34,026 nucleotides of DNA, taken from positions 1-34,026 of the forward strand of contig JAAYQX010000013.1 of the NCBI GenBank assembly GCA_012519085.1, given 5' to 3'. This DNA comes from Clostridiaceae bacterium. Lineage in GTDB: Bacteria > Bacillota > Clostridia > Saccharofermentanales > DTU023. Positions 19,511 to 32,760 of this stretch are shown here, piece by piece (within the stretch, counting starts at the first letter, position 1; every line of letters begins with the position of its first letter). Both the position numbers and the translations under genes were made by a program. The notes under the pieces are model-generated. The model ran no database searches and was not told where the DNA came from. It saw only the letters and a program-made list of their open reading frames with translations.

Positions 19511-21064
19511 ATGAGAAAAGAAAAAGGCAGGGTAACTACTCGAGTTGGGCTTATCAGTTTTGTTCTGGTGCTCATTATGCTGATCAGTGTGCTACCGTCT
19601 TGCAGTCTGCTTGAAGAAAAACCGTCCAGAGCTTTCGAAAATCTGGACGCCGAAACTGATGCGCCACTGATTAAGGAAACTGAGGAAAATATCTCATCCG
19701 ATTCCGCAGAGCTGGCTGAAACGGCGAGACTAAATATTCAACATGACAGGCCAGTGATCTCCAAGGGTACTGTACCGGTATTTACCGCGAAAAATAATCC
19801 TCCTGATGTCAAGAGCGATTCCACTGCTGATAAGGCTACTTCGACCGGGCCGACTAAGGCCGTAACTCCCACTCCAACTCCGACCCCAACCCCCCAAGCA
19901 GCTAGACTAAGCAGCAATGTGGGAGCTGTACATGCCGGCCCGCCCTATACGATCAGGATTTTCATTGCCGAGCAGCGGGTAGTTGTTTATGGTACTACAG
20001 CTAGTGGGGTCGAGGTGCCGATCAGGAAAATGCTTACCTCTACCGGTGTCAGGCGTCATCCCACACCGCTCACAGGCGAGAACCGATATTATTTTCTAGG
20101 CGGGGGTATACCTTGGGTTAAGTTCAAGCTTTATGGTATAACTTACCATCAGTATGCAACCCGCTTCTATGGCAAAGGCCTAGGTCCTAATTTTTTCTTC
20201 CATTCTACAGCTTACAATCAGCGTGATCCGTCCTCACTTCAAGTTAGTGCATTCAATCTGTTGGGGCGCAGAGCTTCCCACGGTTGTATTCGCCTCAACA
20301 CTGCCGATGCCAAGTTCATCTATTCCCTACGTGGTACCAGAGCCAAGGTCAAAGTCTTGGCCAATGCTGATGGATATAATATAGGCAGTGTGCCGGGTCT
20401 GCCGAAATTCACAATCAAGGTTAAGCGTGGTGACCCGCGCTATGGCTGGGATCCCTATGATCCCAATCCCAATAATCCTTGGAAGAACCATATTGATGCA
20501 CCGCCCCGTATAGTTGGTGCGGCGCAGACAATCACGGCCGGCGAAGCTTTCGATTATCTGAAGGGTGTCAAAGCCTATGACTTTACTAATGCCGAAGTGG
20601 CGGTGACCTATACCGGCATTGTGGATGTGAATACAGCCGGAACCTATCCGGTCGTCTATACGGCAAAGGATGATACGGGCAATACGAGTACTCTGACGCT
20701 GCAACATGTTGTCAACCCTGCTCCAACATCAACACCAACGCCGACAGCGGTGCCGACTACCGCACCGCCGACGTCAACACCGACGCCAAAGCCGACGTCA
20801 CCGCCGACGCCAACACCGACGCCAAAACCGACGTTAACGCCGACGCCAACACCGACGCCAACACCGACGCCAACACCGACGTCAACGCCGACGCCAACGC
20901 CGACGCCAACACCGACGCCAACACCGACGCCAACGCCAGGTGAGGAGCCACCAGGTGAGGAGCCACCAGGTGAGGAACCACCAGGTGAGGAACCACCAGG
21001 TGAGGAGCCACCGGGTGAGGAACCACCAGGTGAGGAGCCACCGGGTGATGATCCAAGCCCCTAG
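19511..21064 (+). CDS. Lipoprotein L,D-transpeptidase (YkuD) with Ig-like (DUF5011-like) domain and Pro-rich repeat tail
   Basis: Lipobox-like LPSCS; YkuD motif [46 protein letters not shown]...[19 protein letters not shown]; then (PT)n and (GEEPP)n. Confidence 0.9.
20721..20938 (+). repeat. Short tandem repeat encoding PTPTPT (6/12-bp units, CCGACGCCAACA-like)
   Basis: Direct reading within the L,D-transpeptidase 3' end. Confidence 0.9.
20939..21058 (+). repeat. 15-bp tandem repeat GGTGAGGAGCCACCA encoding GEEPP (7 units plus a degenerate GDDPS unit)
   Basis: Direct reading; units differ only at third-base positions such as GAG/GAA and CCA/CCG until the final unit. Confidence 0.92.
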
Positions 21065-26241: not shown

Positions 26242-26937
26242 ATGCAGCAAGGCAGGGATCAAAATCGCAAAGATAAGAAGCAAGAGATAGTGCGCAGTAG
26301 CCGCATGCGATGGCCACTGGCTTATTTGCTGGGAGTTCCTACTGCTCTTTTATTTAGAGTCCGCTATGAAGGACTGGAAAATATCCCGCCGGAACCGTTT
26401 TTTGTGATTGCCAATCACCGCAGTTTATTGGACCTGATCGCCTTACAGTTTAAAATGCCGCGCTGGGTGCACTGGATCGCCAAGCAGTCCTTATTTTCGA
26501 TTCCCGTGATCGGTTGGTTTGTGCGCAAATTAGGCGCAATACATCTGACCAGGGATCGCAGAGATTCCCGAGCGGTCAGAACTGTTTTGCAATTGGCCAA
26601 AGAGGGTTGCTCCATCGGCATCTTCCCCCAAGGCACGAGGGTAAAAGAAGCGGATCTGAACAAAGTGCTGCCCAGTGGCAATGCTGCCAATCTGATAAGC
26701 CATTCCGGCCTTACAGTCCTGCCGGTAGCCTTTGCCAGGGAATGGAAATTGTTCAGAAAACAGCGGATTATTTTTGGCAAACCCTTCAAAATCGATCGGC
26801 CAACCGACAAATCTCGACAAAAAGAGGAGTTTTCTCGGATCATGATGGATATAATGCGTAAAATATTTGCTCTGGCTGATTTGGAGTGGCAGCCTGAAAG
26901 AGAGAGTAAATACGGAACAGAGGGGCAACTGGATTGA
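26242..26937 (+). CDS. plsC: 1-acyl-sn-glycerol-3-phosphate acyltransferase
   Basis: FFVIANHRSLLDLIAL (HX4D variant NHRSLLD), IGIFPQGTRVKEADL. Confidence 0.92.
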   Translation: MQQGRDQNRKDKKQEIVRSSRMRWPLAYLLGVPTALLFRVRYEGLENIPPEPFFVIANHRSLLDLIALQFKMPRWVHWIAKQSLFSIPVIGWFVRKLGAIHLTRDRRDSRAVRTVLQLAKEGCSIGIFPQGTRVKEADLNKVLPSGNAANLISHSGLTVLPVAFAREWKLFRKQRIIFGKPFKIDRPTDKSRQKEEFSRIMMDIMRKIFALADLEWQPERESKYGTEGQLD

Positions 26938-29705
26938 TGCGGATAGAACTGGCTAAATATGCAGGTTTTTGTCCCGGGGTACGTCGGGCTGTCGAGACCG
27001 CCTATCGCAATTGTCATGATGAAAACAGCACCTGGATGTTGGGTGAAATAGTCCACAATAAGCATGTCGTTCAGGAGCTGCTGAACAAAGGCCTTAAATT
27101 GGCCCGGACATTAGACGAGATACCGGATAATGCACGGGTCATTATCAGAGCTCACGGTGTCGCTCCGGAGATCATTGAAAGATTACAAGCCAAGCATTGC
27201 GAAATAATTGATCAGACCTGTCCCTTCGTTACAAAAGTGCAAAAACTGGCGGCAGAGGCGGCGCAAAGCGGCGCAGGGCTGATTATAACAGGCAATCCCG
27301 ATCATCCGGAAGTGAGAGGTTTGGTGGGTCATTATGGTGCTGACCCGATTATAATTAACAATACAACTGAGGCCGAAACAGCTGATTTTGGGGGTGGCGA
27401 CTGGATGCTGGTGTCACAGACAACCTTTTCTGCTGCCCAGTTTGAGCAAATTTCTAAAATATTAAATAAGAAAATTGCAAAATTACGTATATTTGATACA
27501 ATATGTGTTACGGCTGAACAAAGGCAGGCGGAAGCGGCAGAACTGGCTGCCGGATCCGATCTGATACTTGTTCTGGGTAGTTCAACCAGTTCCAATACCA
27601 TGAAATTGGTAGAGGTTTGTACTAGCCGTAATTCCAATGTGCACCTGATAGAAGATCCCGAACAGATTGCAGATTTGTTCGGACGGAATATTCCGGTACA
27701 CAAAAATATTAATATTGGTATAACTGCCGGGGCGTCCACGCCTCAAGGCATGATCAGGGAGGTTATCCAGAAGATGAAAGAACAGGAAGGTCTCGTAGCT
27801 CAGGAAGAGAAGGAGACAGCTCTTACGCATCAGCCAGAAAAAGAGCAAGCGTCGTTGGTAGAAACAGCAGAAGAGTTTGTTGCAGCTGAACCTGAGGTGC
27901 AGGCAAAAACGGAAGATTTGCCGGAAGCAACTGTTGAAGAAGAAGTTGCGGAGCCTGAGGAGACAGCTGAACCGGTGACAGAAGATGCCGAGGCAGCTGA
28001 AGTGCCTACCGAAGCTACAGAAACAGCAAATGAAGCACTAACAGCCGAAACCGAGGCGGAAACTGCAGAGGTGCCGGAAGATGCAGCAACGGCAGAACCT
28101 GAGGCGGCAGAAGCTACAGAACCCGCAGAAGAAGCGGCAACAACCGAAGCTGAGGCAGAAGTTGCAGAACCTGCAGAAGAAGTTGCAGAAGAAGCAGCAA
28201 CGGTCGCAGCGGAGGAGGAAACCGCAGAATCCTCAGGCGAGGAGCCAACGACAGAAGCCGAGACAGAAGCTACAGAGTCCGCAGAAACGGATGCAGTGGC
28301 TGAAAAGGCAGAGGCAGAGCAAGAAGACCATGCTGAGGTCAGCTTTTCAGATTTTATAGACAGTATTCCTCAGTTGAAGCGCGGCAGTATCGTAACGGGT
28401 ATTGTAGTACGCAAGGACGACAACTATGTCTATGTCGATGTTAAAGATAAATCTGAAGGCAGGATACCCCTGAAAGAATTTGAAAACGATCCGGAGTATG
28501 ATTTAGAGGCAGCTGTCAAGAATCATGCCGAGATGGAAGTCTATGTGCGCCATATTCGCAATACAGATATGGGCAAAGAGATTACACTTTCCAAAGCCAG
28601 GGTAGATTTTTCCAAGCACAAGGCTCAAATCGAAAAAGCATTTAAGGAGAAAACACCGGTTCAGGTAAAAGTAGTCAATGTCGTTAAAGACGGTGTTATC
28701 TGTGCCTATGGCAGTGTGGATATTTATGTCCATCGCACTCAGCTGGAACTCCATATGGTCGATGATCTTGAGCCATATCGTGGCGAATCCTTTGAAATCC
28801 TGGTCACGCAATTTGATGCCAACCGCAAGCGCCCCAAAGTCGCCGGGTCCAGACGTTCTCTGTTGCAACGCGAACGTCGCAAAATGGCGGAAGATTTCTG
28901 GAATAATATCAGCATTGATAAGTTTTACACAGGCACAGTCAGGAATCTCACCGATTTCGGTGCTTTCGTAGATGTCGGCGGTGTGGACGGACTGGTTCAC
29001 ATCAGCGAGCTGTCCTGGAATCGTATTAAGCATCCGAGCGAAGTCGTCAATGTAGGTGATAAGATCGAAGTTTTCGTCAAGGACTTTGACCGCGCTGCCA
29101 AGAAAATATCCCTTGGCTATCGCCTGCCCGAGAATGATCCTTATAGAAATATCGAGGAGAAATTCCCGGTTGGTTCTATCGTCCGCGGTATTGTAGTGCG
29201 TATGTTCCAGTTTGGCGCTTTCGTCGAGATTGCTCCGGGCGTAGATGCACTATGCCATATTTCACAAATTTCTGATTATAGATTGAATCGTCCTAATGAT
29301 GTTTTGGCCATCGGCATGGAGATTGATGCCAGGGTGCTGGAAGTCTCCAATGAAAGCAGACGCATCAGCATCAGTATCCGCGAAGTTGAGCCCATAAATC
29401 CGTCTGAAGAACTCCGGGCTGAGATTGAGGCTAAGCAGCAGCGTCGCCGCGAACAGCGTGAAAGTAAGCAGCCGAAGCGCGAAAGACGCGAGCGCCGCAG
29501 CAAACGTGAGCCCAGAGAAGAGGCGATGCCAACCAGCTATGTTGACAGTCATACTCCGACCTCAATGGCTGAACTTGCCAATATTTCTGCCGTTACAGAT
29601 GGGGGCGCCGAATTATTGGATAGGCTGATGGGCGATAAAGCAAAACCACTGAAGAGAAAGTTACAGAAGAAGTTGAAGAAGAGAAAGTCACAGAAGAAGT
29701 TGTAG
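26934..29705 (+). CDS. Fused IspH (HMBPP reductase) - ribosomal protein S1 with long acidic linker; 3' end apparently frameshifted (acidic tail continues to 29854 in the -1 frame)
   Basis: IspH: GFCPGVRRAVETA, DQTCPFVTKVQ, FDTICVTAEQRQAE; four S1 repeats beginning RGSIVTGIVVRKDDNYVYVDV, KTPVQVKVVNVVKDGVICAY, TGTVRNLTDFGAFVDVGGVDGLVHISELSW, GSIVRGIVVRMFQFGAFVEIAPGVDALCHISQI. Confidence 0.93.
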   Translation: MMRIELAKYAGFCPGVRRAVETAYRNCHDENSTWMLGEIVHNKHVVQELLNKGLKLARTLDEIPDNARVIIRAHGVAPEIIERLQAKHCEIIDQTCPFVTKVQKLAAEAAQSGAGLIITGNPDHPEVRGLVGHYGADPIIINNTTEAETADFGGGDWMLVSQTTFSAAQFEQISKILNKKIAKLRIFDTICVTAEQRQAEAAELAAGSDLILVLGSSTSSNTMKLVEVCTSRNSNVHLIEDPEQIADLFGRNIPVHKNINIGITAGASTPQGMIREVIQKMKEQEGLVAQEEKETALTHQPEKEQASLVETAEEFVAAEPEVQAKTEDLPEATVEEEVAEPEETAEPVTEDAEAAEVPTEATETANEALTAETEAETAEVPEDAATAEPEAAEATEPAEEAATTEAEAEVAEPAEEVAEEAATVAAEEETAESSGEEPTTEAETEATESAETDAVAEKAEAEQEDHAEVSFSDFIDSIPQLKRGSIVTGIVVRKDDNYVYVDVKDKSEGRIPLKEFENDPEYDLEAAVKNHAEMEVYVRHIRNTDMGKEITLSKARVDFSKHKAQIEKAFKEKTPVQVKVVNVVKDGVICAYGSVDIYVHRTQLELHMVDDLEPYRGESFEILVTQFDANRKRPKVAGSRRSLLQRERRKMAEDFWNNISIDKFYTGTVRNLTDFGAFVDVGGVDGLVHISELSWNRIKHPSEVVNVGDKIEVFVKDFDRAAKKISLGYRLPENDPYRNIEEKFPVGSIVRGIVVRMFQFGAFVEIAPGVDALCHISQISDYRLNRPNDVLAIGMEIDARVLEVSNESRRISISIREVEPINPSEELRAEIEAKQQRRREQRESKQPKRERRERRSKREPREEAMPTSYVDSHTPTSMAELANISAVTDGGAELLDRLMGDKAKPLKRKLQKKLKKRKSQKKL

Positions 29706-29954
29706 AGAATATCAAAGAAGAAGTCGAAGAAGAAGTCGTAGAGGATGCCAAAGAAGAACATCCTGATGATACGGAAGTAGTGGCTGAAGAAGCTGAACCG
29801 GATGCAGAGACGGCAGAAGCCTGCTGTGAAACAGAGGTGCCTGCGGAAGAGTAGCACTGCAGCTGTTTCCTGAATCCTAAAAGAATAACTAAAATAAACC
29901 AAGAGATTATCTAAAAAAGCCGGAGCTATAAGAAAGTAATTACATATTTGCAAG

Positions 29955-30274: not shown

Positions 30275-32760
30275 ATGTTTAAGAAATCCCGGCATCTTCT
30301 GTTTTTGTTTCTCTGTATTATCTTAGTTTTTAGTGTTAACACGAAAGTCTATGCAGAAGAGACCATCACAGAAGAAGGAGACTAGTAGAGACAACAGTAG
30401 AGTCATCAACTGTTGATGGAACGGCAGCAGAAGAACCGACTACAGAAGAAGCTACTGTAGAAGACGAGAACGAAGAAACGAAACCTGAAGAAGAGCCGGA
30501 AGCAGTTGGTGATGAAGTGCTAGTAGAGATAACAGTAGAGTCATCAACTGTTGAAGAAACGACAGCAGAAGAACCGACTACAGAAGAAGCTACTGTAGCA
30601 GACGACAACGAAGAAGAAATACCTACAGAAGAGACAGAAACAGAAGCAGTTGCAGAGGAAGCACTTGCGACAGAAGTAATCCCGGAAGAGACGCAAGTAG
30701 AAACAGCAACAGAAGCCAAGTCTGAAAAAAGGCTTATAGAAGAAAATCCTGAGCAAACCGAAGAGACCGTTCCAAAGGTTGGTTTGAGGGGAGGCTCCAG
30801 GCCGCCCGGCTGGTCTAAGGATGAAGATGGCAATTGGTACTATTACGAGGATTATGGAATACCCTATCATGGCTGGTTACTCTACGATGGTCATTGGTAT
30901 TACATTTTTTACGGTTTAATGTGCACAGGCCCAACTTGGGCAGAGGATTCGCTTGGCGAAATGTATTATTGGCGCTTAAATGATGATGGCCGCTTGGAAG
31001 CGAAAGCCGGTTGGGTCGGTCGGCATGGTCTTTGGTATTATTTTAATTCTAACGGTAAGGGTCATGATGGCTGGTTAAAATATAACAACAAATGGTATTA
31101 CTTTAAGAGAGGCTCCATGTGCATAGGCCCAACTTTGGTAGAGGATACTAGTGGCGAAGAATATTATTGGCGCTTAAATAACGACAATGGCCACTTGGAA
31201 GAGAAAGCCGGTTGGGTTGAGGATTTTTATGGTCTTTGGCATTATTTTGACACTAATGGCAGGGGTTACACTGGCTGGTTGTCCTACAACGGCTATTGGT
31301 ATTACTTCTTTAGAGGCTCCATGTTCACGACAGGGAGATACCTTATATATGATGAGAGTACCAACGAATATGACTATTGGCATTTCGACGAAGAAGGACG
31401 ATTGATCACTACTACAGAGTGGTATCAAGCTTCAGATGGTAATTGGTTCTATAGATCTGGTGGGAAAGACCATGATGGCTGGTTAAGATATAACAATAAA
31501 TGGTATTTTATACACGTATACCATGGCATGTATTCTGACGGCATGAGATGGGTAGGTGATGTTCAATATAATTTTGCCGCAGACGGACAAGTGATTGAAG
31601 AAGGCGGTTGGGTTAAAATCGATGGTGCTTGGTACTATTATGATCAAGATGGTTCATTCCATCATGGCTGGCTACCCTACAATGGAAAATGGTATTACCT
31701 TGAAAATGGTTACATGTGTACCGGGATAAGAAACATTGACGGATATTACTGGTGGCGATTTAATGATGAAGGACACCTAGTAGCCAAAGCCGGTTGGGTT
31801 GAGGAATATGGTTTTAAGTATTATTTTGACCATAACGGTAAGGGGCTCAATGACTGGTTATTATATGATGGAAAATGGTATTACATTTCTTATGGTGAAA
31901 TGTGCACAGGCCCAACTCCAACTTGGGCAGAAGATTCGCTTGGCGAAATGTATTACTGGCGATTAAACAACGCCGGCCAATTGGAAACCAAAGCCGGCTG
32001 GTTTGAGGATAAAGACGGTGGTGAGTGGTATTATTTTGACCATAGCGGCAAGGGTTTTAAAGGCTGGTTACCCTACAATAGGCAATGGTATTACTTTGAT
32101 GCCGGGAAAATGTGTAGAGGGCCAGCCTATGTATCTGAAGACGGATATTACTGGCGATTCAATGACAGTGGAGAATTGGAAGCGAAAGCCGGTTGGGTTG
32201 AGGATAAATACTGGAATGATTGGTATTATTTTAATTCTAACGGTCAGGGTTATGATGGCTGGCTACTTCATAATGGGAAATATTATTACCTTAAGAAAGG
32301 CTATATGTTAAAAGATGGTTTTGGAAATGCAGGTGGTAAATTATGTGAATTTAGTAAGGATGGTGTCTGGATCAGAAATCTTAAGGGCTGGGTAAAAAAC
32401 AAAAATGGCTACTATTATTACGCCAATCAAGATAGTACAATTCCTGCCGGCTGGTTAAAATATAACAACAAATGGTATTATATCTACGAAAATGGCCAAA
32501 TGGCGATAGATTATGCTTTTGCAGATGATAATATCTATGTTTTTGAAAGCTCGGGAGCATTAGCCAGCGGTTGGTTCAGAAACATCTATGGAAATCTATG
32601 CTATGCCAGTAGTAATGGCACCGTCTATCATGGTTGGTTACAACAAGGCAGCAAGTGGTACTATATCTATGGAAGCATTAAAGTAATAGATGCTGCACGG
32701 AGAATCAATGGCAAGGCTCACAAATTCGACAGGTATGGCGTTTGGCTCTCAGAGAAATGA
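30275..32760 (+). CDS. Secreted repeat protein: signal peptide, acidic Thr/Glu stalk, multiple choline/glucan-binding-type (CW-binding) repeats; frameshifted after the signal peptide
   Basis: SD GGGAGG then MFKKSRHLLFLFLCIILVFSVNTKVYAEETITEEGD*; the remainder is open in the -1 frame up to 32760 (track ORF 30517..32760). Repeats such as GWLLYDGHWYYIFYGLMCTGPTWAEDSLGEMYYWRLNDDGRLEAKAGWV. No catalytic domain seen. Confidence 0.8.
30382..30612 (+). repeat. Direct duplication (period 138 bp, ~95 bp near-identical) in the acidic stalk
   Basis: CTAGTAGAGACAACAGTAGAGTCATCAACTGTTGATGGAACGGCAGCAGAAGAACCGACTACAGAAGAAGCTACTGTAG at 30382 recurs at 30520 with a few substitutions. Confidence 0.85.

Follow-up and report, generated by a model that had tools for sequence, protein, structure and literature searches.

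The 3' end of the ispH-rpsA fusion gene in the window, the whole 34,026-nucleotide stretch of DNA analyzed here (contig C49 of a source genome that consists of 62 contigs, amounts to 1.58 Mb and is 92% complete), can be read in two frames that yield termini of opposite charge, which raises the question of which of the two encodes the genuine C-terminus. The gene itself is an ordinary, already known IspH-S1 fusion. A single open reading frame (ORF) of 923 amino acids, with a TTG start and shortened by the frame shift, holds both domains: the matches to IspH models span residues 2-284 and those to S1 models about 444-840, the S1 repeats being taken together. The whole protein scores 639.4 bits against NF000907 (bifunctional IspH/30S ribosomal protein S1), above the curated cut-off of 624. 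The argument turns on the following features.

26934..29705, + strand: fused ispH-rpsA ORF in its assembled form (from the ORF list and NCBIfam NF000907)
29639..29647, + strand: one-base deletion site relative to the related genomes (from the alignment with G002 and G001)
29642..29854, + strand: ancestral acidic tail at the C-terminus of the S1 part, now in the -1 frame, stop codon TAG (in-frame homolog in G002)
29646..29705, + strand: out-of-frame Lys-rich end PLKRKLQKKLKKRKSQKKL, followed by the stop codon (missing from the 3' ends of the relatives examined)

In frame 0, the ORF terminates in the Lys-rich sequence GDKAKPLKRKLQKKLKKRKSQKKL. The -1 frame is closed by TAA at 29636-29638, open from 29639 and, starting at 29642, reads (S)KTTEEKVTEEVEEEKVTEEVVENIKEEVEEEVVEDAKEEHPDDTEVVAEEAEPDAETAEACCETEVPAEE, a 70-residue acidic tail that ends with the stop codon at 29852-29854 and contains, for example, the acidic peptide EHPDDTEVVAEEAEPDAETAEACCETEVPAEE. 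At the point where the frames part lies a CAAAAC run (29641-29646), with the A-run itself at 29642-29645. The hidden tail carries a net charge of -27, compared to +11 for the 19-residue Lys-rich end, which arises when GAA/GAG repeats are read, one base out of register, as AAG. Taken alone, the open -1 frame is weak evidence for coding: GAA-rich DNA is often open in several frames, and an opening of 70 codons occurs in about 3% of sequences drawn from a second-order Markov model with the same composition. Whether the tail is real is decided not by openness but by homology: the closest relative has a matching tail in frame.

The close relatives of the source genome are metagenome-assembled Clostridiales/Clostridiaceae. 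In the closest one (G002; loci L003/L032), the S1 part shows 93% amino-acid identity, and the gene runs unshifted through GDKAKTTEEKVKEEVETEEKV to EEAEPDAEMAEACCETEMPAEE and its stop codon, with an in-frame tail that reads GDKAKTTEEKV...AEACCETEMPAEE. The -1-frame tail of the window aligns with this in-frame tail end to end, stop codon included. On the strength of this homology, the hidden acidic tail is genuine ancestral coding sequence. In those relatives from the family and the order whose 3' end is readable, the gene closes in frame, in almost every case with an acidic tail and in none with the Lys-rich terminus; G002 also contains a Lys-rich out-of-frame reading, which is unused there. 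The sequence-only reading, which had given the coordinates of both frames, the A-run, the TAA at 29636 and the acidic frame to 29854 correctly, had also proposed that a frameshift hides an acidic tail and had suggested a comparison with relatives, and this comparison bears the proposal out. A normal, functional Lys-rich terminus, with the acidic frame opened by chance, is the least credible of all explanations; a chance opening is compositionally not very improbable, yet it is ruled out by the end-to-end homology with the tails of relatives and by the lack of a Lys-rich end in any relative examined.

The acidic tails vary widely among the relatives, with lengths between about 10 and more than 200 residues, and are also highly variable in sequence. 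The motif EPxAE(M/T)AxxCC occurs once in the window tail (29795-29827, -1 frame), once in that of G002 and twice in that of G001. In another relative (G003), the S1 gene is interrupted by stretches of N whose flanks are repeated (L131, 10487-10644 and 10968-11080), and the breaks apparent in this gene were rejected as frameshifts, being scaffold gaps.

Nucleotide alignment of the tail with G002 reveals two 3-base gaps and one 1-base gap. The latter, between GC and AAAAC, is private to the window assembly and is the sole frame-breaking difference from G002, so that the assembly is one base short relative to its relatives, with the tail otherwise intact. At this site, G002 has GCG AAA ACA ACT and G001 has GTA AAA ACC GCG; therefore, the lost base is not necessarily an A of the run. 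A loss of the third position from a GCG Ala codon is just as parsimonious as a loss of one A from a run of five, such that the original proposal of one A lost from the CAAAAC run stands as a possibility but not as the sole option.

The tail has been evolving much faster than the S1 core, with pN of 0.13 vs 0.022 in the comparison with G002 (pS, 0.41 and 0.27, respectively). Within the tail, pN is nevertheless low relative to pS (Fisher p = 0.0004), and the hidden frame has therefore been maintained by selection during much of the period after the two species separated. The same comparison is compatible with a deletion that may have occurred late on the branch of the window. The indel is private to one assembly and the frame is otherwise constrained, a pattern that a recent real deletion would produce as well.

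Could both frames be used? Two forms of S1 would result if the ribosome were programmed to shift to the -1 frame or if transcriptional slippage occurred on the A-run, and some local features are suggestive: the AAA at 29643-29645 has another AAA one base back, at 29642-29644, on which to re-pair, and the -1 frame is open right after the TAA at 29636. The codon phase is wrong, however, and an in-frame X XXY YYZ heptamer is absent (the frame-0 codons are GCA AAA CCA), and no stimulatory RNA structure is found downstream, the segment 29640-29730 folding worse than its shuffled versions (MFE, -2.9 kcal/mol; z, +1.69). The two-frame arrangement is not conserved either, given that the tail lies in frame 0 in the relatives. 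A literature search found no report of S1 frameshifting. Codon phase, folding and the absence of conservation lead us to reject programmed frameshifting, and we consider production of two forms by either route highly improbable. The A4 run is far shorter than the runs known to give efficient transcriptional slippage, which counts against that mechanism. The narrower scenario, in which the base is really absent and slippage on the A-run generates Lys-rich and acidic forms of S1, switching the C-terminal charge, is less probable still.

A real one-base deletion in this lineage is a more serious contender, possible although not the explanation we favor. Under this scenario, the 19-residue Lys-rich end would have replaced an acidic tail that is dispensable, or else the shifted gene would be a passing population variant. 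The fast evolution of the tail implies that its loss may cost little, and the great differences in tail length and sequence among the relatives suggest that such a loss could be tolerated. The hidden frame, on the other hand, is undecayed, with 70 codons free of stops, a selection-like pattern of substitutions and an intact stop codon, and a real deletion could only be a recent one. Another probable shift, at a distance of 740 bp, also weighs against a real deletion, as it points to a local problem with the quality of the sequence.

This second apparent one-base loss is located at about 30380, between a signal-peptide ORF (30275-30385) and cell-wall-binding repeats. The signal-peptide ORF, MFKKSRHLLFLFLCIILVFSVNTKVYAEETITEEGD, consists of 36 codons, is preceded by a good ribosome-binding site and stops at TAG TAG, and the -1 frame from 30379 to 32760 continues with acidic repeats and many repeats of the cell-wall/choline-binding type. 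No ortholog of the 30275-32760 region was found in four same-genus genomes. A third case is an oppF-like ABC ATPase gene (G000:C2, around 4400; L110, 3900-5050), in which the region encoding the Walker B motif is broken at GATGAGGCTTTTCAG, in a T4 run, as if one T were missing. Both of these apparent losses go in the same direction as the one in the S1 tail.

Frameshifts were sought with an automated scan that covered selected stretches of the source genome. In about 380 kb of source-genome coding DNA aligned to same-genus genomes, the oppF-like gene was the one other clear internal frameshift, a rate that is a lower bound because the sensitivity of the scan is limited; in the direction from the relatives to the source genome, the S1 tail itself was left unflagged, the match downstream of the shift being short. 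The remaining hits were shadow ORFs or upstream ORF extensions and were rejected as frameshifts. No internal frameshift was detected in G003, across about 360 kb of aligned coding DNA. The assembly, accordingly, is not generally poor, and we rejected poor overall quality as an explanation. Two losses 740 bp apart, with few elsewhere, rather point to a local sequence-quality problem, provided that the loss at 30380 is real. Elsewhere in the window, an ORF at 19511-21064, the product of which we take to be a putative L,D-transpeptidase-like protein, ends in long TPTPTP and GEEPP repeats encoded in low-complexity DNA, and the assembly could be unreliable there too.

Taken together, these observations favor a sequencing or assembly consensus error, with one base missing at about 29639-29647, to which we assign a probability of roughly 0.63. 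We lean to an error because of the second probable loss 740 bp downstream and the third one in the oppF-like gene, with none detected in about 360 kb of G003. The low frameshift rate in the genome and the shortness of the A4 run count against an error, the former also speaking for a real deletion. In the assembled sequence, one base short within a purine-rich stretch of a draft genome, the last 70 codons are out of frame and an early stop follows a meaningless Lys-rich stretch. If an error it is, the gene encodes an ordinary IspH-S1 fusion product with an acidic low-complexity tail at its end, and the protein in the cell probably ends ...GDKAKTTEEK...VPAEE. Among the alternatives raised originally, slippage on the A-run is thus very unlikely, whereas an indel error and a real deletion both remain, with the error favored.

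The biology of this locus, then, is ordinary, and the frame break most likely arose in sequencing or assembly; it may also stem from a recent mutation, but not from a programmed mechanism. Its significance is mainly one of annotation hygiene, in that a gene caller assigns a false basic C-terminus and the conserved acidic tail is hidden. Should the deletion prove real, it would demonstrate that loss of the acidic tail from the fused S1 is possible.

Compared to known systems, the site shares with dnaX-type programmed -1 frameshifting the overlapping open frames offset by -1 and an A-run at the switch, but differs in having neither a slippery heptamer nor a stimulatory structure nor conservation. 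With the one-base consensus errors of draft and metagenome-assembled genomes, it shares a private loss that falls in purine-rich, low-complexity DNA flanked on either side by conserved coding sequence; here, the error is inferred from sequence comparison. The gene product resembles the IspH-RPS1 "Rosetta stone" proteins, a fusion described in many anaerobes (PMC4746011) and represented by NF000907, in that it carries an IspH domain and, after it, S1 repeats within a single chain and is encoded in a genome of the Clostridia type. It differs from them in the long acidic segment that links the IspH and S1 parts and in the acidic C-terminal tail, common to the relatives, that is out of frame in the window assembly.
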